Shown one piece after another: positions 4,050-19,730 of a DNA stretch of 20,670 nt. Location: positions 1-20,670 of IMG/VR virus record IMGVR_UViG_3300028581_000302, one strand, 5' to 3'. The position numbers and the translations under genes were made by a program. This DNA comes from a virus. Within the stretch, counting starts at the first letter, position 1. Each line of letters opens with the position of its first letter. The notes beneath the pieces are model-generated. The model was not told where the DNA came from and made no database searches. It saw nothing but the letters and a program-made list of their open reading frames with translations.

Positions 4050-5060
4050 ATGAGTTTAACAAAAGAACAAGTTATGATTGAGTATGTAAAGTGTATCAAA
4101 GATACACCTTACGCTCTTAAAACATATTTGGAAACATACGACAACACCGTATCAAAATATGTCCCCTTGGAGTTATTTCCTGACCAAATTTCATTATTAA
4201 ATGATTATGAAGATTATAATGAAAATATCGCATTAAAATATCGTCAGGCTGGGGTGTCAACGGTAACTGCGGCTTGGATATCTAAGAAAATAGCTTTTGC
4301 TAATAAAAAGAAACCTGAGAAAATTTTAATTATTGCCAACAAATTGGATACATCCCAAGAAATGGCAAATAAGATAAGATTGTTTATTACCCAATGGCCT
4401 AGTTGGGTTGGAATTGATTTCTCCAAAGATAAAGACTCCCAAAAACATTTCAAAACAAATAATGGGTGTGAAGTAAAAGCGGTTGCAACGTCAAAGGATG
4501 CTCTTCGTGGTTTTACACCAACAATCCTAGTATTTGACGAAGCTGCGTTTATTGATGCCGACTCAGACTTTTGGGCAGCTTGTATGGCCTCACTATCAAC
4601 TGGGGGTAAGGTTATTGTGGTATCAACACCAAATGGATATGACCCAATTTATTATGAAATCTATAACCAAGCAAATAGGGGAATGAATGATTTCAAAATA
4701 TCTGAAATGTTTTGGTTTAGAGACCCAAGATACACAAAAGATTTATACCTAGTCAAAACCAAAGATACAGTCCACTACCTACTCAATAAAACTGAGTATA
4801 GTAAAGATGATATTATAAGTTGGGATAATATACCATTTGAGAATAGAAACTTCGAAGAACTCAAAATTATAATGAGTACAGGGTATAAACCTTGTTCATC
4901 TTGGTTTGAGGGTATGGTGAAGAAATTGAAATACGATAAGAGAAAGGTATCTCAGGAATTAGAGTGTGTTGATTATAATACAATGGTAACACTACGAGAC
5001 AAAAATACAAATGAAATTTTTGATGTTAGAATTGGTGATTTATATGAAAATCTATTGTAG
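4050..5060 (+). CDS. Terminase large subunit, N-terminal half (ATPase domain) fused to split-intein N fragment
   Basis: Residues 1-305 are the ATPase half of a T4 gp17-like DNA-packaging motor. They carry a P-loop-like motif KYRQAGVST (63-71), a Walker B strand ILVFDEAAFI (159-168) with a candidate catalytic Glu164, and a coupling motif VIVVSTPNG (188-196). The usual Walker A lysine before S/T is replaced by Val, a variant whose lysine or arginine lies earlier in the loop. The sequence QELE then runs directly into Cys306, the first residue of a 31-residue intein N fragment (to TAG at 5058). The product cannot be active alone. It must be joined in trans to the product starting at 6280, whose extein begins CNFLGSGD, giving QELE-CNFLGSGD as in gp17-like terminases. 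The stop is the only TAG used by a gene in this window. Confidence 0.93.
   Translation: MSLTKEQVMIEYVKCIKDTPYALKTYLETYDNTVSKYVPLELFPDQISLLNDYEDYNENIALKYRQAGVSTVTAAWISKKIAFANKKKPEKILIIANKLDTSQEMANKIRLFITQWPSWVGIDFSKDKDSQKHFKTNNGCEVKAVATSKDALRGFTPTILVFDEAAFIDADSDFWAACMASLSTGGKVIVVSTPNGYDPIYYEIYNQANRGMNDFKISEMFWFRDPRYTKDLYLVKTKDTVHYLLNKTEYSKDDIISWDNIPFENRNFEELKIIMSTGYKPCSSWFEGMVKKLKYDKRKVSQELECVDYNTMVTLRDKNTNEIFDVRIGDLYENLL
4965..5057 (+). other. Split intein N fragment (AceL-TerL type), 31 aa
   Basis: It starts with Cys and has splicing block A (CVDYNTMVTL, then IFDVRIGDLYENLL at the end). It is far shorter than the roughly 100-residue N fragments of ordinary split inteins. It closely parallels the atypical AceL-TerL split intein, also in a terminase gene, whose N fragment is about 25 residues and ends at an equivalent DLY-x2-L position. 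The matching C fragment is at 6280-6606. Confidence 0.9.
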
Positions 5061-5096
5061 AATATAGTTCTTGAGTTACTTTTCATTAAAATTGTG

Positions 5097-5104
5097 ATAT
5101 TTAT
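5097..5104 (+). promoter_or_regulatory. ATATTTAT motif ahead of the intein-associated endonuclease gene
   Basis: This is an exact ATATTTAT only 12 bases before the ATG at 5109, closer than at other genes. If it is a promoter, the endonuclease mRNA would be almost leaderless. It could instead be chance in an AT-rich gap. Confidence 0.3.
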
Positions 5105-5108
5105 TTAT

Positions 5109-6290
5109 ATGGAACTTAAAGAACTCAAATCAAAAATAGAAGAAACTGGATATATTGACAATGTTAAAATTGGAAATTATTTCCATATGAAATACCCCTC
5201 AATTTATTCTGAAGTTATAAAAATAACATCTTGTTTAGAAGATTCATATTGTGACAACAAACTTTTTAGAGCTAGGGTTATCTTCATTTTAAAATATAAT
5301 TTAGACGTTAACAAAATTAAAAACGACAAAGGATGGTTTCGTTTTAATAGAAAAAAAGATGATTTTTTTGAAAAAAATATTGACTATGTGAAACAGGGTT
5401 GGGAAACAAGTAAGTGTAACTCGACTAATAACTTTTTAAGTTTAGATGAAACTATTAAAATACTTAGAACAGAAGATTGTTATAAAAATTACTTAGGGAG
5501 GTCAAAAAATAGAACTTTAATTAAAGAAAATATCAAATTATATGATTCTATTTACCAACACACAAAATTTATGGATTTTTTTAATAAAAATAGTAACAAA
5601 TTCTCTATGAGAATTTTATTTTTAGTTAATAAGAATGGTGAAATAAATCAAATAAAGTGTAAAAGTTGTAACGTAAATTTTACTTCATTTAACTATTCAA
5701 TAGGTGATTATAATGAAAATTGTGTAAATTGTTTTCATAATACTATTAATCATTATCCGACAATTGGTTATTTTAAAAAAAAATATGGTGACGAATATCA
5801 AAAATTTTATGATGAAGATAGAAAAAGGGTTTCTAATTTAAAAGTTAATAGTAAACAATGGTTTATTAGGAAATACGGTGAATGTAATGGGGTTAAAAAA
5901 TACGAAGAATATTTATCAAACAGAATTGAGATTCTTGAGGGTATTAAATCAAAAAAATATTCAAAAATATCTCAAAAACTTTTTTGGTTAATATATGAAA
6001 AATTAAATGAAGAGGAGAAAAAAAATTGTTGGTTTAAAGAATTAAATAAAGAGGTATTAGTTAAAGTAAGTGAAAACAAATTTTATTTTCCTGATTTTTT
6101 GATGGGTAAAAAAATAATTGAATATGATGGTAAATATTGGCATCAACAAGATGATGATGATATAAGAAATTCATTATATAAAAAAAATGGATATGATATA
6201 ATGATAATTAATGAGGATGATTTTAGTAGAGTCCATATAAGTGATAATATAATTAATAATTGTGTAAATTTTTTAAGAAATGAAATATAA
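5109..6290 (+). CDS. Homing endonuclease (Vsr/PD-(D/E)xK-like) nested between the two split-intein halves
   Basis: ATG 5109 (393 aa) is preferred; an in-frame GTG at 5094 would place the start upstream of the ATATTTAT motif. The protein carries a Cys4 zinc-finger-like cluster (Cys184, Cys187, Cys205, Cys208), a KYGE..G..KYEEY element (about residues 255-270) typical of phage homing endonucleases, and a C-terminal nuclease-like core: PDF with Asp329, then EYDGKYWH from Glu338, followed by a GYDIMIINEDDF segment. This pattern is that of Vsr-like or EDxHD-type nucleases found with fractured, split-intein genes. The gene is in the same frame as the upstream intein N fragment, separated by one TAG and 16 sense codons, and its end overlaps the start of the intein C fragment by 11 bases. 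It probably cuts intein-free terminase genes and so spreads the element. Confidence 0.82.
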   Translation: MELKELKSKIEETGYIDNVKIGNYFHMKYPSIYSEVIKITSCLEDSYCDNKLFRARVIFILKYNLDVNKIKNDKGWFRFNRKKDDFFEKNIDYVKQGWETSKCNSTNNFLSLDETIKILRTEDCYKNYLGRSKNRTLIKENIKLYDSIYQHTKFMDFFNKNSNKFSMRILFLVNKNGEINQIKCKSCNVNFTSFNYSIGDYNENCVNCFHNTINHYPTIGYFKKKYGDEYQKFYDEDRKRVSNLKVNSKQWFIRKYGECNGVKKYEEYLSNRIEILEGIKSKKYSKISQKLFWLIYEKLNEEEKKNCWFKELNKEVLVKVSENKFYFPDFLMGKKIIEYDGKYWHQQDDDDIRNSLYKKNGYDIMIINEDDFSRVHISDNIINNCVNFLRNEI

Positions 6291-6606
6291 TAACGGTAAA
6301 TATGAAATATCTAGTCCAGAAGGATTTGTTGATTTTTTAGGGGTTCAAAAACTACAAAGAAAAACTATTGAAATATCATTTTCAAATAATTTAACTCTAC
6401 GCGGATCTTTAAATCATACTATTTTTGATTTTGATAATCACCCAATTGAACTTTCAAATATTAAAATTGGAGACTCTATTAAATCTTTTGATGGTAACTT
6501 GGTTGTTGTTGATATACTAAACTATGAGGATGAAACTGATGTGTATGATATAATTGACTCAGGTAAATTACATTTATATTACACTAATAAGATTATTTCA
6601 CATAAT
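6280..6606 (+). other. Split intein C fragment (AceL-TerL type), 109 aa
   Basis: It contains the parts missing from the N fragment: an N-terminal YEISSPEGF stretch like the ILSPNGF of AceL-TerL, block B with GSLNH (Ser-x2-His), a KIGD element, and blocks F and G ending ISHN, followed by Cys as the first extein residue. The length (109) matches the roughly 104-residue C fragment of AceL-TerL. Confidence 0.9.
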
Positions 6607-8679
6607 TGTAATTTTCTTGGATCTGGTGATAATGTATTTGACTCATTATTAATGCAAAAAGTAAAAGACAATTACATAAAAGAACCCCAAAATAAAATGA
6701 TGGGTAATTCTTTATGGATATGGAAAGAACCTGTGATGGGACACAAATATGTTATGGGTTGCTTACCTCCAGGTGAAAAAGTATTAACAAATTTTGGGTT
6801 GAAGAATATTGAGGATGTGACTTTTAACGAGTTATTAGTTAATGAAACTGGTAATTATGTTAATATTATTAACAAACAAATATATCCAGTAATTGATGAA
6901 GATATCTATACAATAAAAGTAGATAATACATTTAGAACAACAACTTTTACAAAAGAACATCCAATTTTAATAAGTAAAACAATATTAAAAAGAAATTATA
7001 AGAAAAATAATAAAGATTATCAATTTAATGAAAGATATTGGGATTTTGATTTTAAATATGTTAAGACTGAAGATATTGAAGTTGGGGATTGGATTAAAGT
7101 TCCAAATCAATATTTTAATAAAAAAATAGAAAATATTGATAACTATTGGAAAATTTCTGAAAAAGTAAGAACTGATTTTAATATTAGTTCGCCACTAAAT
7201 AATAAAGAGTTTTGGTGGTTTATAGGTATGTGGTTAGGCGATGGTTGGTTAGAACAAAAAAATGATAACTATTTAATTGGTATTTGTTTTGATAAAAAAC
7301 AAAAATCATATTTATATGAAATGGAAAAAATTATTTTTAAATTATTTAATCGTAATCCAACTTACATTGATAAGGAGAGTTCTGATAATTTAGTTTTTAA
7401 TAGTAAATTTTTATATTATTTTTTATTGGAAAATTTTGGTAGATATTCATATGGTAAAATGATAAGTGAATGGGTAAAAACAATTCCTAATGAATTTAAA
7501 TATGAGTTAATTCGTGGTTATTTTGATAGTGATGGATGTTGGGTTAAAGTTAAAAAAAAGGATAAATATAACTCTAAGTTAAGCTTTGTAAGTATTAGTT
7601 TAACACTATTAGAGTCAATACAAGATATTTTATTTTCAATTGGTATAATATCATCACTAAACTTATTAAGAAACCTAGGTGAAATTACATTTAAAAATAA
7701 ATTATATAAAACAAAAGAAACATATTCTTTAAATTTAGGAAATAATGATTCATTGGAATTACTGCGTTTTATTAATAATAAAGATGATATTAAACTACAA
7801 AAATTTAATATTAATGAATTCTCAATAGTTAATAAAAGAATAATTAGTTCATGCCATTTTAATCAGACTAAAGAATTTATTTTTTTTAGAGTAAAAAATA
7901 TTAAAAAAAATAAATTTACAGGTAATGTTTATAATTTTGAGTGTGAAACAAATACATTTATGTGTCATCATATAACAACGCATAATTGTGATGTTAGTCG
8001 TGGAGATAGTGAAGATTTTAGTGCGTTCCAAATAATTGATTTTGATGAAAGAGAACAAGTTGCCGAATATGTGGGAAAATTACCCCCAGATACAATGGCT
8101 GAAATATGCTATAAATGGGCAAATATGTATAACTGTTTTATTGTAATAGATATAACTGGTGGTATGGGGGTATCAACCTCAAGAAAATTACAAGAAATGG
8201 GTTATAAGAATTTATATGTTGATGGTGTTGATTTGGCGAATAAATGGAAGTATGACCCAAAAACATTGGATAAAATCCCCGGACTAAATTTTAATAACAA
8301 ACGTGTTCAGATTATTGCTTCATTTGAGGAAGCTATGAGACACGAATTTAAGATATATAGTTCAAGGTTATTTGATGAGATGAATACCTTTATTTATGTG
8401 AGTGGTAGACCTGACCACCAAAAGGGACAACATGATGACCTTATTATGTCAATTGCAATGGCGACATATGTTGCAGAATCATCTTTCAGTAGTTTAGAAA
8501 AAGTTACGGAACAAACAAAGGCAATGTTGGAATCTTGGTCTGTATCTAATAATGAAAATATGGGAAAACAATTGGATTTTAATCCAGTAATACCATTTGG
8601 ACACGAAAGAATAAATCAAAGAAATCAAAATGTAAGTAAAGATGACTATATGAAATACTCTTGGTTATTTGGAAGATGA
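6280..8679 (+). CDS. Intein C fragment + terminase nuclease half with an internal LAGLIDADG intein
   Basis: The 799-residue precursor has four parts. Residues 1-109 are the split-intein C fragment. Residues 110-160 are terminase sequence (CNFLGSGDNVFDS onward). Residues 161-569 are a second, complete intein. From 570 the nuclease half runs to the end, starting CDVSRGD. Nuclease acidic candidates are Asp571, Asp624 (VIDITGG) and Asp719/720 (QHDDLIMS), which match the layout of the gp17 nuclease. After all splicing, terminase would be 305+51+230 = 586 residues, close to T4 gp17 (610). ATG 6280 is the only usable start, since a TAA lies two codons upstream in frame. The start overlaps the endonuclease stop, so translation may be coupled to it. 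Confidence 0.93.
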   Translation: MKYNNGKYEISSPEGFVDFLGVQKLQRKTIEISFSNNLTLRGSLNHTIFDFDNHPIELSNIKIGDSIKSFDGNLVVVDILNYEDETDVYDIIDSGKLHLYYTNKIISHNCNFLGSGDNVFDSLLMQKVKDNYIKEPQNKMMGNSLWIWKEPVMGHKYVMGCLPPGEKVLTNFGLKNIEDVTFNELLVNETGNYVNIINKQIYPVIDEDIYTIKVDNTFRTTTFTKEHPILISKTILKRNYKKNNKDYQFNERYWDFDFKYVKTEDIEVGDWIKVPNQYFNKKIENIDNYWKISEKVRTDFNISSPLNNKEFWWFIGMWLGDGWLEQKNDNYLIGICFDKKQKSYLYEMEKIIFKLFNRNPTYIDKESSDNLVFNSKFLYYFLLENFGRYSYGKMISEWVKTIPNEFKYELIRGYFDSDGCWVKVKKKDKYNSKLSFVSISLTLLESIQDILFSIGIISSLNLLRNLGEITFKNKLYKTKETYSLNLGNNDSLELLRFINNKDDIKLQKFNINEFSIVNKRIISSCHFNQTKEFIFFRVKNIKKNKFTGNVYNFECETNTFMCHHITTHNCDVSRGDSEDFSAFQIIDFDEREQVAEYVGKLPPDTMAEICYKWANMYNCFIVIDITGGMGVSTSRKLQEMGYKNLYVDGVDLANKWKYDPKTLDKIPGLNFNNKRVQIIASFEEAMRHEFKIYSSRLFDEMNTFIYVSGRPDHQKGQHDDLIMSIAMATYVAESSFSSLEKVTEQTKAMLESWSVSNNENMGKQLDFNPVIPFGHERINQRNQNVSKDDYMKYSWLFGR
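6760..7986 (+). other. Complete LAGLIDADG intein in terminase, 409 aa
   Basis: It begins with Cys (CLPPGEKVLTNFG), has block B TKEH (TFTKEHPI), two LAGLIDADG helices (FIGMWLGDG, Asp at precursor residue 321, and LIRGYFDSDG, Asp 416/418), and ends with block F (VYNFECETNTFMCHH) and block G TTHN, followed by Cys. Removal joins KYVMG to CDVSRGD, the start of the terminase nuclease active site. The endonuclease motifs look intact. Confidence 0.95.
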
Positions 8680-8880: not shown

Positions 8881-11832
8881 ATGGAACAAAATCAAAATAA
8901 TTTAACGGTTTGGCAGAGGTTATCCAAAGCCTTTGGACCAAATGCTTTATTAAATCAAGATTATCCAACTTATAAATTTGATAAGAAGGAATTATTACGT
9001 ACAACATCAAAACAAGAGTACGAAAAAGAGCTTTTACAAGCTCAACAAACTTATTACTTAGGTAATCAGTGGACAAAGATTGAAAGTAATCTCTATACAC
9101 AAGCAATATATTATGAACCAACTAGATTGGCTTCTTTTTATGATTACGAATCTATGGAGTATTCAATACATGGTGAAACTAAAATTGCAACACCCAATGG
9201 TTTTATCACGATTAAAGAATTAGCTGATAAAGGAAGAGATTATGAGTTTATAACATATGCTTATGACCACAATTTAAAAAAAGTTGTGCCGGCTAAAGCA
9301 AGAAACGCTCATTACACTCGTGATGAAATGACTTATAAAATTACATTTGATGATGATTCTCATATTATAGCAACATATGGGCACAGATTTCTTAAACGAG
9401 ATAGTGTATTTGAATACGTTGAAAATTTAAAACCTGGTGATTCTATGATGCCTTTTTATCGTAAATCATTTTACAATAATGAGAAATATAATTGGGTTTA
9501 TACTTGTAATTCTGATGAAGGACATAATGGGTGGATTTCTGAACATAATCTTATTGCTGAATGGTTTTATGAAACCAAAGTAAAAGAAGATGAGGAAGTA
9601 CATCACGTAGATTTCAATGGTAAAAATAATTTACCTGAAAATCTTCAAATTATGACTATATCGGAACATAGAGCTTACCACGCAAGATTAAATAATGAAA
9701 AATTATGGGCTAATCCCAAATACAGACAAAAAATGTCTGAGGTGGCAAAAAGAAAAGGTAAGTTAATTTGGGGTGGAAGAAGAAGTGGTGATAATAATCC
9801 ATCATATATAAAAATTCCATTTGATGAAATTGTTAGGGTAGCAAAAGAAAAAAGGGGGGTAGAAGAAACAGCAAAAACTTTAGGGGTATCATATAGAAAG
9901 ATTCAAAATGAATTAAGGTTTAATGGTTTTAAAAATTGGGACGATTTTCTTTCAGTATATAAAATAAAAAAATATCTAAAAGTTTCAGAAGACTATCATT
10001 TAATTAATTTCAAATTAATACCTTGGGATTTATTAGTTGATGTAGCAAAAAAAGAAAAATTAATGAAAAATGTTTGTAAAACATTGGACATTACAATGGG
10101 TAAATTACGTTCAACTATAAGACAAGGTGGATATAATAATTGGACTACATTTATGACAGCATATGGATTAGAGATTGGTAAAACAGGAAGAAAAAAAGAA
10201 ATTAAAGAAAATGTAGTAAACCATAAAATTGTTTCTATAGAACCTTATGGAATTGTTCCTGTTTATGATTTAACTGTACCTGGATATAAAAATTTTGCAA
10301 CAGACACTATATTCTCACATAATACCCCAGAAATATCCGCAGCATTAGACATATATGGAGAAGAATCAACAACTGTGGATAAGGATGGTTTTATGTTACA
10401 GATATTTTCAGAGTCAAAAAGGATAAAAGGTATTTTGGCCGACTTATTTAATAACGCATTGGATATTAATACAAATTTACCAATGTGGACAAGAAATACC
10501 TGTAAGTATGGTGATAATTTTGTTTATTTGAAACTTGATCCAGAGAAAGGAATTGTTGGTTGTATGCAATTACCGAACATTGAAATTGAACGTTTGGAGA
10601 GGGGTATGCCCGCTCAAGCAACAAGACAAAATATTGAAGAACCCGCAGAAAACAAAGGACTAAGATTTAAATGGAAAGCCAAGGATATGGAATTTAATTC
10701 TTGGGAAATTGCCCACTTCAGATTGTTGGGTGATGACAGAAAACTTCCATACGGCACATCAATGTTGGAGAAAGCAAGACGTATTTGGAAACAATTATTA
10801 TTGGCTGAAGATGCGATGTTGATATATAGAACATCAAGAGCACCTGAGAGAAGGGTATTCAAAGTGTTTGTTGGTAATATGGATGACAAAGATGTTGAGC
10901 CATATGTACAACGTGTTGCTAACAAATTTAAACGTAGTCAAGTGGTTGATTCTCAAACAGGTAATGTTGATATGAGATTTAATCAAATGGCGGTGGATCA
11001 AGATTACTTTATTCCTGTTCGTGACCCAGCTCAAGCAAGTCCAATTGAAACTTTGGCGGGCGGAACAAACTTGGGTGAGATTGCGGATATTGAATATATC
11101 CAAAAGAAACTATTGACAGCATTAAGAGTTCCAAAAGCATTCTTAGGTTTTGAAGAACCAGTTGGAGATGGTAAAAATTTATCATTAATTGATATCCGTT
11201 TTGCTAGAACAATCAATAAGATACAAAAATCAATGATATCTGAATTAAATAAAATAGCTATCATTCATTTATTCTTATTGGGTTTTGAGGATGAATTAAA
11301 TAATTTTACACTAGGTTTAACTAACTCATCTAAACAGGCTGATTTATTAGGTCTTGAAGTTTGGAAAGAAAAAATTGCAGTTTACAAAGAATGTGTTACA
11401 GCATTACAAGATGGCACAGCCCCAACATCACATACTTGGGCAAAGAAACATGTATTAGGATTTTCAGAAGAAGAAATTAAGACTGACTTATACCAACAAC
11501 GTATTGAAAGGGCTGTTGGAGCTGAATTAACTAATACGGCAACAATTATAACCAAGACTGGTATATTTGATAATATTGATAAATTATACTCTCAGAAGAG
11601 TGGTAGTACGGCATCAGCGAGTGGAACACCACCTCCCCCTGGTGGAGGAGCACCACCACCTCCTGGGGGTGAAGCTCCAATGGGATTACCTGAAAGTGAA
11701 AAGAAAGATAATTTAAAAATACTATTGGAATCTGATGGGTTATTAGATGATGAAACTTTCATTGATTTGTCAAAAGCAAAAAATTCCTTGGGTGAAATGG
11801 AGATTCATCTAAACAAACTTTTAAATGGTTAA
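8881..11832 (+). CDS. Portal vertex protein precursor (gp20-like) with HNH intein
   Basis: The 983-residue precursor carries a gp20-like portal, the dodecameric ring at the head vertex through which DNA enters and to which the neck attaches. Extein residues 1-94 end in YDYESMEY. Residues 95-481 are the intein. The extein resumes TPEISAALDIYGEES, a typical portal motif, and continues with portal-like segments (IFSESKRIKGILADLFNN, NTCKYGDNFVYLKLD, YGTSMLEKARRIWKQLLL, TALRVPKAFLGFEE). The mature length would be 596 residues against 524 for T4 gp20. The extra length includes a C-terminal Pro/Gly-rich linker near residues 917-940. The start is ATG 8881 with no Shine-Dalgarno. The gene follows the 46-codon ORF after a 37-base gap that lacks the ATATTTAT motif, so it may be cotranscribed with that ORF. 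Confidence 0.94.
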   Translation: MEQNQNNLTVWQRLSKAFGPNALLNQDYPTYKFDKKELLRTTSKQEYEKELLQAQQTYYLGNQWTKIESNLYTQAIYYEPTRLASFYDYESMEYSIHGETKIATPNGFITIKELADKGRDYEFITYAYDHNLKKVVPAKARNAHYTRDEMTYKITFDDDSHIIATYGHRFLKRDSVFEYVENLKPGDSMMPFYRKSFYNNEKYNWVYTCNSDEGHNGWISEHNLIAEWFYETKVKEDEEVHHVDFNGKNNLPENLQIMTISEHRAYHARLNNEKLWANPKYRQKMSEVAKRKGKLIWGGRRSGDNNPSYIKIPFDEIVRVAKEKRGVEETAKTLGVSYRKIQNELRFNGFKNWDDFLSVYKIKKYLKVSEDYHLINFKLIPWDLLVDVAKKEKLMKNVCKTLDITMGKLRSTIRQGGYNNWTTFMTAYGLEIGKTGRKKEIKENVVNHKIVSIEPYGIVPVYDLTVPGYKNFATDTIFSHNTPEISAALDIYGEESTTVDKDGFMLQIFSESKRIKGILADLFNNALDINTNLPMWTRNTCKYGDNFVYLKLDPEKGIVGCMQLPNIEIERLERGMPAQATRQNIEEPAENKGLRFKWKAKDMEFNSWEIAHFRLLGDDRKLPYGTSMLEKARRIWKQLLLAEDAMLIYRTSRAPERRVFKVFVGNMDDKDVEPYVQRVANKFKRSQVVDSQTGNVDMRFNQMAVDQDYFIPVRDPAQASPIETLAGGTNLGEIADIEYIQKKLLTALRVPKAFLGFEEPVGDGKNLSLIDIRFARTINKIQKSMISELNKIAIIHLFLLGFEDELNNFTLGLTNSSKQADLLGLEVWKEKIAVYKECVTALQDGTAPTSHTWAKKHVLGFSEEEIKTDLYQQRIERAVGAELTNTATIITKTGIFDNIDKLYSQKSGSTASASGTPPPPGGGAPPPPGGEAPMGLPESEKKDNLKILLESDGLLDDETFIDLSKAKNSLGEMEIHLNKLLNG
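9163..10323 (+). other. HNH-type intein in portal protein, 387 aa, Ser at position 1
   Basis: Block A begins with Ser rather than Cys (SIHGETKIATPNGFITIKEL), and block B has TYGH (IIATYGHRF). The endonuclease part has HHVDFNGKNNLPENL from precursor residue 241, an HNH pattern, then a GDNNPSY element and two tandem helix-turn-helix-like DNA-binding repeats, each ending near a NW-D/T-x-F motif. Block F (VPVYDLTVPGYKNFATD) and G (FSHN) follow, with Thr as the first extein residue. Splicing joins MEY to TPEIS. Confidence 0.93.
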
Positions 11833-11852: not shown

Positions 11853-12566
11853 ATGAAATTTGGAATTATTAAATCAAAAATAGATTACGTATTATCAGAA
11901 TCATTTAAGAATGATGAACATTTTAAAGTTGAAATGAAATTTTTCAAAAAAAATATTTTGGAGAATAAAAACCTTAGTAAACTTTTTTATTTATATGATG
12001 AGTTGACAACAAAAAGAAATATGGATAAAAACATTGTTGATGACTATATTAATCAATCAATTACCATATATGAAAATACTATCAACAAATTAAAACCAAC
12101 TGATTACAAAAAATTAGACTATTGGTTAAATGGGATTGAGGTTGAAAATAATTATGAAAACATTGATAAATTGTTTTCAACCAATATACTGACTTTAGAA
12201 AATAAAGTTATCAGTAAAAAAATGATTGCGGAATCTCTAATTAAAAAAGAAGAGACTAAGGAGGTAATTAACTTACCAATTAGTTCAATGATTAAAATGG
12301 CTAATAAATCTATCGCTTCTTATATTGAAAATTTAAATGAAAGTGATAAGAGTGAGTTGGTGAAATTATTGTCTCAGGATGAAAAGATTATGAAAGAGAG
12401 TTATGAGTTGACAAAACTTAAAGTAATTGACAAATTAAATAACCATAAATCGGAATCGGATTCCGATACATCAGTAAGAATTGATGAAACCATATTAAAA
12501 TTAAAAGAGGAGAAGTTTGATAAATTAACTTATTTCAAATTAAAAAATCTGAACGAAAGTCTTTAA
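11853..12566 (+). CDS. Hypothetical helical protein at the gp67/gp68 (prohead core) position, 237 aa
   Basis: This is a 237-residue, Lys/Glu/Asn-rich, mostly helical protein between portal and prohead protease genes, where T4 has the small core genes 67 and 68. It lacks cysteines, membrane segments and any catalytic motif I know. The protein contains an IAE-Ser sequence (MIAESLIKKEE, about residue 125), which fits the (I/L)-x-E site favoured by gp21-type proteases, so cleavage during maturation is conceivable. Near the C terminus an SESDSD stretch is encoded by a perfect 19-base palindrome. Its stop codon overlaps the stop of the converging bS21 gene. A prohead-core role is inferred from position only. 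Confidence 0.72.
   Translation: MKFGIIKSKIDYVLSESFKNDEHFKVEMKFFKKNILENKNLSKLFYLYDELTTKRNMDKNIVDDYINQSITIYENTINKLKPTDYKKLDYWLNGIEVENNYENIDKLFSTNILTLENKVISKKMIAESLIKKEETKEVINLPISSMIKMANKSIASYIENLNESDKSELVKLLSQDEKIMKESYELTKLKVIDKLNNHKSESDSDTSVRIDETILKLKEEKFDKLTYFKLKNLNESL
12449..12467. repeat. Perfect 19-base palindrome inside a coding region
   Basis: ATCGGAATC and GATTCCGAT are exact reverse complements around a central G. It lies within the SESDSD codons of the upstream gene and is richer in G+C than its surroundings. Confidence 0.8.
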
Positions 12567-12751
12567 TCCTCTCTTTTTGTTTTTTGAGAATATACCGCTT
12601 TTTTAACTTTGTCTCTGCGTCTAATAGAGTTTTTGGTGAATTCTTTTCTTTGTTTCAACTCCGTCATTAATTTAGTTTTAATCACTTTACTCTTAAAGAG
12701 TTTAAGTGCTTTTTCAATTGGGGTTTTGTTATCTACTTTTACAATTAACAT
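12563..12751 (-). CDS. rpsU: Ribosomal protein bS21, phage-encoded
   Basis: This 62-residue, strongly basic protein starts MLIVKVDNKTPIEKALKLFK and ends in a KR-rich tail. The N-terminal strand (LIVKV), the IEKALKLFK helix, the KT..M.ELKQRKEF segment and a basic helix ending KKAVYSQK follow the bS21 pattern, most like Bacteroidota versions (MLIIPVK...IDRALKRYK...RQLRARQAF). bS21 is a small-subunit protein near the 3' end of 16S rRNA. In Bacteroidota it takes part in masking the anti-Shine-Dalgarno sequence. It is the only reverse-strand gene here and its stop overlaps that of the converging gene (TTAA, 12563-12566). No Shine-Dalgarno precedes its start. Probably a host-derived auxiliary gene used to modify host translation. 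Confidence 0.88.
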   Translation of the reverse strand: MLIVKVDNKTPIEKALKLFKSKVIKTKLMTELKQRKEFTKNSIRRRDKVKKAVYSQKTKRED

Positions 12752-12797
12752 ATTTTGGTTTTTTTGACATTTACTTAAATTTTACTTATTTTTTATT

Positions 12798-12825: not shown

Positions 12826-13284
12826 ATGAAAAAAGGAAAAACTTCAAAAATCCAAGGATTTAAAACCGCTAAGATTTTATATGGAACTGTTGATTCAGTT
12901 GAACTGAAATCAATATATCTAAACATACAAACTTGGGTTGAACCTCAACTTGAACTTGAAAATTGGAATCGTGTAATATTGAATTTATCAAGAAAAGTCA
13001 AACACACAATTTACAATAATATAAATACTGAATTATTTGAAAAAAAGTTTATTGTTGATTTGGATTTAAGGTCTAGTGGGCTACAAATGGAAAAAAAGTC
13101 TTTCCTTAATCTTGAGATTAATTTTTTTCTTAACCAACAAGATATTGATTTTAAATCAAATAATGTTAAAGAAATCTTAAAGAATCTAACAAAAAAAATT
13201 ATCCAAGACAATCTTACCAACAATCATTATTTCAATTTTAGTCTAACTAAAAAGAGTGATAAGTTAATAAATATAAAAACATAA
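12826..13284 (+). CDS. Hypothetical protein, 152 aa
   Basis: This is a 152-residue protein read divergently from bS21 and leading toward the protease gene. ATG 12826 is used; an ATG four bases earlier is in another frame and closes after 13 codons. Alternating polar/hydrophobic stretches (VELKSIYLNIQTWVEP, FIVDLDLRSSGL, KSFLNLEINFFL) suggest a beta-rich domain with a Lys-rich start. No cysteine pairs, membrane segments or catalytic motifs are seen. I do not recognise the family. Its place in the head-assembly cluster suggests an assembly or virion role, but nothing in the sequence proves it. Confidence 0.7.
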   Translation: MKKGKTSKIQGFKTAKILYGTVDSVELKSIYLNIQTWVEPQLELENWNRVILNLSRKVKHTIYNNINTELFEKKFIVDLDLRSSGLQMEKKSFLNLEINFFLNQQDIDFKSNNVKEILKNLTKKIIQDNLTNNHYFNFSLTKKSDKLINIKT

Positions 13285-13308: not shown

Positions 13309-14028
13309 ATGAGCTTAAGAATTTTAAATCCTGGTGAATTAGGTAAAGGAATATTAATTGAGAATGATGGGTGGGTTTCGCCTAATACAACAATGAATTC
13401 TTATATATTGGAAACTAGAAACTTTTTAGACCACTCCAAACCTTTTGAATTTTATGCCGTTCTACAAAAATATAATACCCCAAATAGAAATGGTAGAATT
13501 TATCCTGAAAGGATATTAAAAAGAGAATCTGAAAATTACAAAAAGATGATTCAAAAAGGCACTTCTCTTTCTGAATTAAATCACCCAGAATCGTCTCTAA
13601 TTGATTTAGACAGAGCTTCCCACTTAATTACTGAAGTGTGGTGGGAAGGACCAGTTTTAATGGGTAAATTAAAACTATTAACAAGTCCTGGATTTCACGA
13701 GAGAGGAATTGTATCCACAAAAGGAGATTTAGCGGCAAACTACTTAAGACAAGGTGTTACTCTTGGTATTTCTTCTCGTGGTGTAGGATCACTTAAAAAG
13801 GTTGGGGAACAAAATGAAGTTCAGGATGACTTTGAATTAATTTGTTTTGACTTGGTATCTTCTCCATCAACACCTGGTGCTTATCTTTTCTTGAATAAAG
13901 AAGATAGAACAAGTTTGGATGAGAATTTGGATGACGATAAAAAAATGTCTGTTGAGAGAAATGTTGGTCAAAGTGGGAATAAATCACTTGACTTAATGAA
14001 AAGATTAAACGATTATTTGGGATATTAA
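13309..14028 (+). CDS. Prohead core protease (gp21-like)
   Basis: This 239-residue serine protease of the phage prohead type (T4 gp21, 212 aa) degrades the scaffold and trims capsid proteins inside the prohead. Visible family features are the strand FYAVLQKYNTPNRNGRIYP, where T4-type proteases have their N-terminal fold, a candidate catalytic His92 in SELNHPESS, and a candidate nucleophile Ser155 or Ser156 in LGISSRGVGS, followed by ELICFDLVSSPSTPGA. The His-Ser spacing of 63-64 residues is near that reported for gp21. The C-terminal 35 residues are polar and may be a linker removed on self-cleavage. A likely substrate site is seen in the downstream capsid protein (INE-Ala at residues 58-61). 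Confidence 0.92.
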   Translation: MSLRILNPGELGKGILIENDGWVSPNTTMNSYILETRNFLDHSKPFEFYAVLQKYNTPNRNGRIYPERILKRESENYKKMIQKGTSLSELNHPESSLIDLDRASHLITEVWWEGPVLMGKLKLLTSPGFHERGIVSTKGDLAANYLRQGVTLGISSRGVGSLKKVGEQNEVQDDFELICFDLVSSPSTPGAYLFLNKEDRTSLDENLDDDKKMSVERNVGQSGNKSLDLMKRLNDYLGY

Positions 14029-16059: not shown

Positions 16060-17913
16060 ATGGGAGCATTATTAGAAAGCGGTCTTGTTGGTAATATTGG
16101 TTTGAAACACCTTAAAGTTATCAAAGAAGATACAATTAACAAATGGGATAGATTAGGATTCCTTGATGGCCTTAGAGGTCACCTAAAAGAAAACGTAGCT
16201 CAGTTATATGAAAACCAAGCTTCATACTTAATCAATGAGGCGACTTCTGACGCAAGCTCAGGTTCTTTTGAAACTGTAGTATTTCCAATCCTTAGACGTG
16301 TATTCTCTAAATTATTGGCGAATGATATCGTATCTGTACAAGCAATGAACTTACCTATCGGTAAATTGTTCTACTTCGTACCTAAAATCCAAGGTTATGC
16401 TTCGGGTGGAACTGGTTCGGACACTTACGCTGAACACTATTCACCTCTTGGAGCTCCAGGTAACTATCCTGGACAAGGAGTTGGATTTAATACTGGTTAC
16501 GAAGGCACTGGAGCATTTGCAAAAAATCTTTATGATTTGTTTTATGAAGGTAGTGAACCTGGTCTAGAACCAGCTGGTCTTTTTGATTACTCAAAAGGTG
16601 CATGGACAGCAATTTCTCAAAACACTCAACTAGTTCAGTGGTCAAATGGTTCACTTGTTGAATCGACAGGTATTACTCAAACTCAAGTTGGTATTAGAAA
16701 AATTTTGATGAAACTTTGTGGATGGAATTCTTATCAAGGATGGGGTAAACTTGTCGGACCTGATGGTGCTGAAGTTGATTCTGAAACATTCTTAGCTGAC
16801 CTTAAAATTATTGCAACTTCAAATTTCTCTGTTGAAGCATCGCCATGTCCTATTACGGTCGGTCAACCACTTTTATTCCGTGTTGTAACACAACAATATG
16901 GTAAATCAATTGTAAATCCAACATCAAGAAGAGTTCAAACAACTTTTCCAACAGGAACAGCTTCTGGTGCTGGAAATGGTGGTTCTTTTGAAAGTGTTTG
17001 TGACCCTGAAGGTTGTATCTATTTAGAAGTTGATTTATCATGTCCGGTTTGTGCTGATTGTGATTCGTCTACTTTAGATGGTTACACAGGTACAACTATT
17101 CTTTCTGCATCATCAGCTAGTTCATTTACTGCGGTATGGAGAAGATACCAAGAACTTGAATTTGAAGATAAAATTGGTGAAGTTTCTTTTGACCTTGAAT
17201 CTGTAACTGTTTCTGTGTCTGAAAGAAAACTTAGAGCACAATGGTCACCTGAATTAGCTCAAGACGTTGCGGCATTCCACAACATTGACGCTGAAGCAGA
17301 ATTGACTGCATTGTTATCTGAACAAGTTGCGGCTGAAATTGACCGTGAAATCCTTCGTGATTTACGTAAAGGTGCTGCTTGGAATTTAAGATGGGATTAC
17401 AACGGATGGAGAAGAATTTCTCAAACAACTTCTTACACTCAAAAAGATTGGAATCAAACTTTGATTACAGCAATCAACCAATTGTCAGCTCAAATCCACA
17501 AATCAACTCTTAGAGGTGGTGCTAACTGGATTGTTGTTTCTTCTGAGGTTTCTGCAATCTTTGATGACCTTGAATACTTCCACGTATCAAATGCTTCTCC
17601 TGAACAAGACCAATACAATATGGGTATTGAAAGAGTAGGAACATTGGCTGGTAGATACCAAGTATATCGTGACCCTTACTTCCCACCTAACCAAGTGTTA
17701 ATCGGACATAAAGGAACATCATTGTTAGATACTGGTTATATCTATGCTCCGTATGTGCCACTTCAATTGACACCTACAATGTATAATCCATTTAACTTTA
17801 CTCCTATCAAGGGTATTATGACAAGATACGCGAAGAAAATGGTTAATAATAGATTTTATGGACGTATTACAGTTGATGGTGTTAGAACATTTGACTTACA
17901 AGAATTGAGATAA
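16060..17913 (+). CDS. Major capsid protein precursor (gp23-like)
   Basis: This 617-residue protein has the clear signature of T4 gp23-type capsid proteins near its N terminus: SFETVVFPILRRVFSKLLANDIVSVQAMNLPIGKLFYF (given here as separate overlapping family features: FPILRRVF, then NLPIGKLFYF). Residues 1-60 look like the removable propeptide; INE-Ala at 58-61 fits the (I/L)-x-E site of gp21-type proteases and sits near the T4 cleavage point (after residue 65). The C-terminal half (FDLESVTVSVSERKLRAQWS, AELTALLSEQVAAEIDREIL) is also gp23-like. It is about 100 residues longer than T4 gp23, with an insertion that holds five clustered cysteines (314, 319, 328, 331, 334). The start ATG follows the scaffold stop by 17 bases, and a strong terminator follows. 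Codon use has more C-ending codons than neighbours, as expected of a highly expressed gene. Confidence 0.96.
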   Translation: MGALLESGLVGNIGLKHLKVIKEDTINKWDRLGFLDGLRGHLKENVAQLYENQASYLINEATSDASSGSFETVVFPILRRVFSKLLANDIVSVQAMNLPIGKLFYFVPKIQGYASGGTGSDTYAEHYSPLGAPGNYPGQGVGFNTGYEGTGAFAKNLYDLFYEGSEPGLEPAGLFDYSKGAWTAISQNTQLVQWSNGSLVESTGITQTQVGIRKILMKLCGWNSYQGWGKLVGPDGAEVDSETFLADLKIIATSNFSVEASPCPITVGQPLLFRVVTQQYGKSIVNPTSRRVQTTFPTGTASGAGNGGSFESVCDPEGCIYLEVDLSCPVCADCDSSTLDGYTGTTILSASSASSFTAVWRRYQELEFEDKIGEVSFDLESVTVSVSERKLRAQWSPELAQDVAAFHNIDAEAELTALLSEQVAAEIDREILRDLRKGAAWNLRWDYNGWRRISQTTSYTQKDWNQTLITAINQLSAQIHKSTLRGGANWIVVSSEVSAIFDDLEYFHVSNASPEQDQYNMGIERVGTLAGRYQVYRDPYFPPNQVLIGHKGTSLLDTGYIYAPYVPLQLTPTMYNPFNFTPIKGIMTRYAKKMVNNRFYGRITVDGVRTFDLQELR

Positions 17914-18026: not shown

Positions 18027-19730
18027 ATGTCATTAACAATACCACAGATAGATAACATTATAGAACTCTATACCAATCAAGGATATTCTACTCATAAATT
18101 GGCAGAACTTTATAAAGTTGGTCATAGAAAAATTAGTCAAATATTAAAAGATAATAATGTTGAGATTAAAAAAAGGGGCGGTCAAATTAAGATTGGTAAT
18201 AGTAATAATTTAGAAAAATCTAAGGTAAACAAATACACATCAGAGGATAAGGAACTTATCGCTAAATGTAAGAAAACTGATATTACTATAAATGACCCCA
18301 ACAATTTATCAGGTAAATTAACAAAACACATCATAGAAATATATGGTGATGTTAATATTCCAACAAACACTTATCAAAGAAAAAAATATGAACAAATTAA
18401 TGGTAAAAAGTGGTTTGAGGAGTATTTTGATATTATAGAAGTTGACAAAGATGTTAAAAGAAAATGTAATTTATGTGATTGGGGAACAACTGACATATAT
18501 AATAAATCAGGTTGTTTTACCAATCATATTGAAAATGAACATAAGATTACTCTTGATGAATATTTATTCCAATTCCCAAATGATATACAGTACCACCACA
18601 ATTACATTAAAAGAACTGATAGAGAGAAAGAGTTATTGTTGGAAGAAAACTTCGTAATATGTCAATTGTGTAATGAAAAGATGAAGGGTATATCAAATAC
18701 ACATCTAAAGAATAAACACAACATAAGTGTTGAAGAATACAAACTAAAATTTCCAAACTCTAAAATTGTATCTGAGTCTACCTCTAATATTTTGAGTGAA
18801 CTTATTAAAGAAACTAATATTAATTTTCAACCAACTTGGACATCAAAAGGTGAAACTGAAATTAAGGAGTTTATTGAGGGTTTAGGGTTTGAGATATATA
18901 AGGGTAAAAATAGAAAACTATTGGAAGGTAAAGAAATTGATTTAATTATACCCTCAGTTAAAGTTGCAATAGAATATAATGGTTTATATTACCATACTGA
19001 AAATATGGGTAAGAATTCAGTTTATCATTTAAATAAAACTTTAGCGTGTAATCAGTTAGGTTATAAACTAATTCATATTTTTGAAGATGAGTGGGTTGTG
19101 AATAAAGAATTGACTAAATCAAAACTAAAACATATTCTTAGTGTAAGTGATGGGATTAAAATTGGGGCAAGAAAAGTTGTAGTGAATAAAATATCCAAAG
19201 AAGATAAATCATATTTTTTGGATGTGAGTCATATTCAAGGGAATGATAAATCTGACATATTTTATGGCGCTTATTATAATGAGATTTTGGTTGGTGTTAT
19301 GACATTTAATAGTCAAAGAAATATGACAAAGAATATTGAAGGTGAATATGAATTAAGTAGATTCTCAACAAGACAAGAATATGTCATAAGTGGATTGGCT
19401 TCTAAAATATTAAAACAATTTATTAATGATTATTCTCCAAGTAGTATAATAAGTTTTGCAGATAGAAGATGGACTACCAATGGAAACAATAATATGTATA
19501 CAAAATTAGGATTTGAATTGGTATCAATATTGAAACCTACATATTTTTATTATTCGTCAAAGATGAATAGATATAAAAGATATCATAAATTTTCTTTTGG
19601 GAAGAATAGTCTTAAAAAGAAATATAATGAAATTGATTTTACCAAAAGTGAAAGTGAACTTACAAAAGAGTTGGGATACTCCAAGATATGGGATTGTGGT
19701 TTATTTAAGTATCGGATTAATTTTTATTGA
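18027..19730 (+). CDS. Free-standing homing endonuclease (Vsr/EDxHD-like) with HTH, zinc fingers and a C-terminal acyltransferase-like domain
   Basis: The order over 567 residues starts with a helix-turn-helix near 5-45 (IDNIIELYTNQGYSTHKLAE, then VGHRKISQILK). Two zinc-finger-like elements follow: CNLC at 147-150 with later H..H, and CQLC at 212-215 with HLKNKH. The nuclease-like core has EIDLII from Glu303, EYNGLYYH from Glu316, and GYKLIHIFEDEW around 340-352. The C-terminal region (about 380-567) carries VSHIQGNDKSD, ELSRFST and SIISFADRRWTTNGN. That last region recurs in phage endonuclease proteins and looks like a GNAT-type fold, function unknown. The gene sits between two transcription units, right behind the capsid gene, which suggests it targets the capsid-gene region of related phages. 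Its nuclease core resembles that of the gene at 5109-6290 but the rest differs. Confidence 0.82.
   Translation: MSLTIPQIDNIIELYTNQGYSTHKLAELYKVGHRKISQILKDNNVEIKKRGGQIKIGNSNNLEKSKVNKYTSEDKELIAKCKKTDITINDPNNLSGKLTKHIIEIYGDVNIPTNTYQRKKYEQINGKKWFEEYFDIIEVDKDVKRKCNLCDWGTTDIYNKSGCFTNHIENEHKITLDEYLFQFPNDIQYHHNYIKRTDREKELLLEENFVICQLCNEKMKGISNTHLKNKHNISVEEYKLKFPNSKIVSESTSNILSELIKETNINFQPTWTSKGETEIKEFIEGLGFEIYKGKNRKLLEGKEIDLIIPSVKVAIEYNGLYYHTENMGKNSVYHLNKTLACNQLGYKLIHIFEDEWVVNKELTKSKLKHILSVSDGIKIGARKVVVNKISKEDKSYFLDVSHIQGNDKSDIFYGAYYNEILVGVMTFNSQRNMTKNIEGEYELSRFSTRQEYVISGLASKILKQFINDYSPSSIISFADRRWTTNGNNNMYTKLGFELVSILKPTYFYYSSKMNRYKRYHKFSFGKNSLKKKYNEIDFTKSESELTKELGYSKIWDCGLFKYRINFY

Follow-up and report, generated by a model that had tools for sequence, protein, structure and literature searches.

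A Bacteroidota-type ribosomal protein bS21 encoded without a Shine-Dalgarno sequence in the head-gene cluster of a T4-like phage

Chen et al. (2022; PMC9723584) described 47 freshwater phage genomes, with Bacteroidetes hosts and falling into clades a-e, in which a bS21 gene is embedded in a head-gene arrangement, and already proposed that the phage protein replaces the bS21 of the host; in this phage group, transcripts of bS21 reach high levels late (PMC9723584). Further, the bS21 of the Pelagibacter phage HTVC008M enters E. coli ribosomes (Mizuno et al., 2019; PMC6375957). On the host side, Flavobacteriales rpsU carries an extended Shine-Dalgarno (SD) with a published pairing of -14 to -21 kcal/mol, which makes bS21 synthesis autoregulated, and in Flavobacterium johnsoniae, ribosomes lacking bS21 show improved translation of rpsU and impaired translation of SD-less mRNAs, on which they initiate poorly (McNutt et al., 2023; PMC9976891). 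The window analyzed here, namely the whole stretch of 20,670 nucleotides that makes up positions 1 to 20,670 of IMG/VR virus record IMGVR_UViG_3300028581_000302, displays the arrangement described by Chen et al. and is therefore a further member of that known group of freshwater phages.

The bS21 gene and its T4-type head cluster

The window is occupied by a T4-type head cluster on the plus strand, in which bS21 is the sole reverse-strand gene. The order of the genes is large terminase, portal gp20, a gene without assigned function, bS21, a second gene without assigned function, prohead protease, a scaffold-like acidic protein, and gp23:

4050..8679 (+), large terminase in two ORFs, 4050-5060 and 6280-8679 (profile matches and reading of the sequence)
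8881..11832 (+), T4-type portal protein (gp20) with an HNH-type intein (profile matches)
11853..12566 (+), convergent neighbor of bS21, 237 aa, product without assigned function, at the position that T4 prohead core genes occupy
12563..12751 (-), bS21, with PF01165 and TIGR00030 matches and Tyr54
12826..13284 (+), divergent neighbor of bS21, 152 aa, product without assigned function, predicted α/β fold
13309..14028 (+), prohead protease (Peptidase_S77), with the late motif ATATTTAT upstream
16060..17913 (+), major capsid protein (gp23 type; profile matches)

At its 3' end, bS21 overlaps the end of the convergent gene by 4 nt; on its other side, it shares 74 bp of divergent intergenic DNA with the 12826..13284 gene. 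The antisense orientation of bS21 to the neighboring gene recurs in all loci that allowed the two genes to be positioned. The gene termed bS21_CN by Chen et al. may be the divergent 152-aa gene, or else the convergent one.

The bS21 gene, a homolog of rpsU, starts with ATG and codes for a 62-residue protein, MLIVKVDNKTPIEKALKLFKSKVIKTKLMTELKQRKEFTKNSIRRRDKVKKAVYSQKTKRED, which is recovered in a Pfam profile search by PF01165 (45.7 bits, E 5.2e-12; curated cut-off 27 bits) and in an NCBIfam profile search by TIGR00030 (33.3 bits; curated cut-off 28.95 bits). A preliminary description made from the letters of the window had recognized a 62-residue reverse-strand bS21 of Bacteroidota type and called for a profile search: its coordinates are exact, both curated cut-offs are passed, and the Bacteroidota affinity is borne out by the tree, the aromatic residue 54, and the closest PDB matches, with the F. 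johnsoniae ribosome 7JIL among the closest solved relatives. Relatives of the protein are found in 77 viral contigs at 54-100% identity, and comparison of the gene with two near relatives yields dN 0.022 / dS 0.286 and dN 0.044 / dS 0.333, indicating that purifying selection acts on it. The spread of relatives and this selection together argue that the ORF is not a chance occurrence.

The terminase break (4050-5060, 5109-6290, and 6280-8679, all on the plus strand) looks like a split intein, with weak matches to Pfam profiles: its N-part ends in C-VDYNTMVTLRDKNTNEIFDVRIGDLYENLL, its C-part runs ...IISHN-C, and the ORF 5109-6290 between them resembles a Vsr/DUF559-type endonuclease. We take this broken terminase to resemble fractured genes described in the literature, in which split inteins occur. 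Inside the terminase C-part follows a second intein, a cis one bearing a LAGLIDADG domain, and directly after the major capsid gene (18027-19730, plus strand) comes a stand-alone gene for a protein that resembles homing endonucleases (phrog_3339, 292 bits).

Phylogeny and residue signature of phage bS21

In a 64-column tree that combines 101 host proteins with 89 distinct phage proteins, the phage sequences all form one clade with support of 99/99 within the Bacteroidota bS21 proteins, a topology consistent with a single acquisition. Flavobacteriaceae-like host sequences join this clade, the phage stem branch is long, and the closest host proteins are ~45% identical to the phage versions. Given the 64 columns and the long stem, the exact sister of the phage clade is unsure and the donor not nameable. 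A search of host genomes with phage bS21 as the query returned no host, and the host rpsU loci were gathered with F. johnsoniae bS21 as the query. bS21 was present in all 148 Bacteroidota genomes searched. Six of them show two or three matches (G127, G046, G149, G112, G097, and G105), one of the G105 matches being at a contig edge. A Flavobacterium-like rpsU in a record titled Rhizobium sp. Q54 (MAG; L108) is probably contamination.

In F. johnsoniae, residue 54 stacks on A1534 of the 16S tail (PMC9723584). All 89 distinct phage proteins have an aromatic residue at this position (Y in 83, H in 5, and F in 1; Tyr54 in the window), and K20, K22, and R35 are retained alongside it. The phage and host proteins part ways at residues 21-28, which read S21-K-V-I-K-T-K-L28 in the window and S-K-V/I-I-K/R-T-K/R-L/Q in the phage consensus, as against an equally conserved host form, R/K-K-F/Y-D/E-K/R-T/S-G-T/V/I. 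Thus, I24 of 88 of the 89 phage proteins faces D/E in hosts, with further fixed differences at positions 23 (V/I vs F), 21 (S vs R/K), and 27 (K/R vs G), all these signature residues being near-invariant within the phage group and within the host group. Part of the signature was already known from Chen et al. (positions 21, 23, 25, and 28 in their own numbering), who placed the divergent residues in a helix over the mRNA path (PMC9723584). An N-terminal helix so consistently unlike that of hosts suggests that phage bS21 may not be a neutral substitute.

Leaders, promoters, and loss of bS21

The intergenic side of the bS21 gene holds two overlapping features:

12752..12776 (-), SD-less, A-rich leader of the bS21 mRNA, with a 16S-tail pairing of +0.5 kcal/mol
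12764..12793 (+), host-like candidate promoter of the divergent neighbor, TTG-N20-TAnnTTT (TTGACATTTACTTAAATTTTACTTATTTTT)

Pairing was computed with RNAduplex between the 25 nt immediately preceding the ATG and the 16S tail AUCACCUCCUUUC. Host rpsU leaders of the Flavobacteriaceae type pair at -15.9 to -21.6 kcal/mol (80 loci, 25 distinct leaders), and phylum-wide 37 of 49 Bacteroidota rpsU genes lie at -7 kcal/mol or lower. By this measure, the 80 distinct phage bS21 leaders span -10.3 to +2.6 kcal/mol with a median of -0.2, without entering the host range; four of them give -7 kcal/mol or lower, against about three in shuffles of the 78 intergenic leaders. These values confirm the earlier readings that host rpsU bears an SD and that the phage copy lacks one. 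G-rich tracts in some leaders of one phage subgroup were considered as candidate SDs and rejected, their count (4/80) being at shuffle level and none being near the host range; an apparent SD before the window terminase (-8.4 kcal/mol) was likewise judged incidental, being conserved in 0/10 distinct leaders.

Without the extended SD, autoregulation in the Flavobacteriales style is not possible for the phage gene. The idea in the preliminary description that the phage copy thereby escapes host feedback fits the absent SD, but six other genes from the phage family likewise show no strong SD (-7 kcal/mol) among their 329 distinct leaders. SD-less leaders are therefore the phage default, which needs no special selection and is not readable as an adaptation on that basis alone. 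The mean A content of the phage bS21 leaders is 0.50, but as these phages have AT-rich genomes and most mRNAs of Bacteroidota lack an SD anyway, A-rich leaders imply no selectivity, and no feature discriminating phage from host mRNAs emerged. The proposal in the preliminary description that phage bS21 steers ribosomes to A-rich leaders thus gains no specific backing from these data.

The motif ATATTTAT, presumably the late promoter of the phage family, lies ~20-31 nt before the start of 204 of 390 phage-family genes (6.7 expected, ~30-fold enrichment) and before 5 of the 14 window genes (4050, 11853, 13309, 14441, and 18027, all on the plus strand; 0.26 expected). Although found upstream of 222 of 370 other cluster genes, it is absent before the gene divergent from bS21 in all 78 distinct intergenic regions. 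This gene is preceded by the element TTG-N20-TAnnTTT in 62/78 of these regions (0.7-3.6 in shuffles), a count that is descriptive since the element was first spotted in part of the sequences counted; unaffected by this is the contrast with other genes, whose leaders have it in 1/370, making it unique to the divergent gene within the head cluster. Around -7, the element is similar to the sigma-A box of flavobacteria, TAnnTTTG (PMC9723704), except that the window copy has no final G. A further analysis recovers the window copy as TTGACA-N17-TATTTT (10/12). We take the TTG element at -33 to match Bacteroidota promoters.

Two candidate elements for bS21 itself were rejected. A GTCAAAA block, conserved ahead of the phage bS21 genes and the reverse complement of the TTGAC element in the neighbor's promoter, was set aside as a leader element because it lies anywhere from 12 to 38 nt (sd 7.3) from the bS21 ATG but at a constant 38-40 nt (sd 0.8) from the GTTTATT box, and because it is retained in a locus that lacks bS21 (L225). 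A late promoter on the bS21 strand scored above the 95th shuffle percentile by position weights in only 2/78 regions. With a host-like and no late promoter before the divergent gene, the bS21 neighborhood seems to be transcribed separately from the late program. This agrees with the published transcript levels, which are similar for bS21 and its opposite-strand neighbor, with no operon shared with the structural genes (PMC9723584).

The divergent 152-aa protein accompanies bS21 in 145 of 146 loci with room to show both, and the pair is also present in three further loci with little room. Its structure is confidently predicted (pLDDT 90.7, pTM 0.85) as an α/β fold that no solved structure matches well (TM up to 0.45 among the top hits of similar size, none with E < 9e-3) and that has one viral relative, the uncharacterized A0A8S5L9A5. 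The exception among the 146 loci is the close relative L225: bS21 is missing from the locus, both neighbors and the neighbor's promoter are kept, and ~120 bp with a terminator-like hairpin and T-run (L225:2877-3001) sit in its place. The nearest cultured relatives by capsid protein include Flavobacterium phage immuto (MW353176; MCP ~40% identical), whose whole genome has no bS21. Its absence from these two phages indicates that bS21 is dispensable in nature.

Proposed role of phage bS21 and comparison with known systems

Based on the family membership, conservation, SD contrast, residue conservation, and locus described above, we propose, with a confidence slightly better than even, that the gene product is a working Bacteroidota-type bS21 of a T4-like phage of the Chen et al. 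(2022) group, which would be taken into the host 30S subunit and keep SD-less translation going while feedback holds host rpsU low. By extension from McNutt et al. (2023), Mizuno et al. (2019), and Chen et al. (2022), from which we draw ribosome uptake, anti-SD hiding, and host rpsU repression, infection would lead host 30S subunits to take up phage bS21, replacing or adding to the host protein, a replacement that we consider plausible. Since neither the aromatic residue 54 nor the C-terminal part has been lost from the phage protein, the 16S tail with the anti-SD would stay hidden, leaving the ribosome competent for SD-less mRNAs, including those of all tested phage structural genes. The host feedback would then sense ribosomes with phage bS21 as replete, such that the SD-bearing host rpsU would be poorly translated and the SD-less phage bS21 mRNA would lie outside this control.

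It is conceivable, if doubtful, that phage bS21 instead replaces its host counterpart to create a specialized ribosome, with the changed residues 21-28 favoring phage mRNAs over the equally SD-less mRNAs of the host. The residue signature leaves room for such a changed selectivity, as the differences are fixed between two groups near-invariant in themselves and map to the helix above the mRNA path according to Chen et al. (PMC9723584). Nevertheless, most host mRNAs being SD-less too, no obvious feature of the leaders sets the two apart, and a single origin followed by drift from one ancestor could yield identical fixed differences.

We regard as unlikely a simple supply function, wherein the loosely held bS21 would run short once host transcription stops and the phage would top it up with no role in selectivity or feedback. 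Such a function would accord with the retention of the aromatic residue 54, K20, K22, and R35, with the poor starts of bS21-lacking ribosomes on SD-less mRNAs (PMC9976891), and with the occurrence of bS21 in 148/148 Bacteroidota genomes, which indicates that the host normally provides it; however, neutral supply leaves the fixed signature at residues 21-28 unexplained. A non-ribosomal or decoy role, with the protein binding phage RNA, the virion, or a defense factor, is very improbable: bS21 proteins can have other partners, such as the OLE complex (PMC12054373), and the gene lies among head genes, with packaging into the particle raised as a possibility by Chen et al. (PMC9723584), but the positions that contact the ribosome are conserved, among them the aromatic residue 54, and the bS21 of another phage enters ribosomes (PMC6375957).

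The proposed working bS21 under host feedback admits a more speculative elaboration, which we hold to be unlikely and offer tentatively, as a one-way switch. With the anti-SD hidden and its own SD absent, feedback would stop host bS21 while phage bS21 continues, favored by the replete ribosomes, which would progressively convert to the form with the changed helix; the divergent host-like promoter region would free the bS21 neighborhood from the late program. The Bacteroidota provide a clean test of such proposals, as the anti-SD is hidden in their ribosomes and almost no gene carries an SD other than rpsU, which is regulated by ribosomal bS21 content. With an SD-bearing host gene and an SD-less phage gene, the function of phage bS21 becomes directly testable by reporters in a laboratory strain.

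In terms of known systems, the HTVC008M protein is likewise a phage-encoded bS21, but belongs to other phage and host lineages, and ribosome entry is shown for HTVC008M. Flavobacterium phage immuto shares with the window the order TerL - gp20 - hypothetical genes - protease - MCP. The Flavobacteriales bS21 (PMC9976891) is of the same protein family and length class and has Tyr54, and the phage gene departs from it in lacking the extended SD and in residues 21-28. The phages of Chen et al. agree with the window in a reverse-strand bS21 between two hypothetical genes in the TerL/portal/prohead protease/MCP region, and in a Bacteroidota-like bS21 with an aromatic residue 54 whose phage sequences cluster apart from bacterial ones. 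The window differs in its intein-broken terminase, inteins not being mentioned in the main text of PMC9723584, which also reports no promoter or leader analysis. What the present analysis adds to Chen et al. (2022) is the SD contrast, the host-like promoter of the neighboring gene, and the natural loss of bS21.
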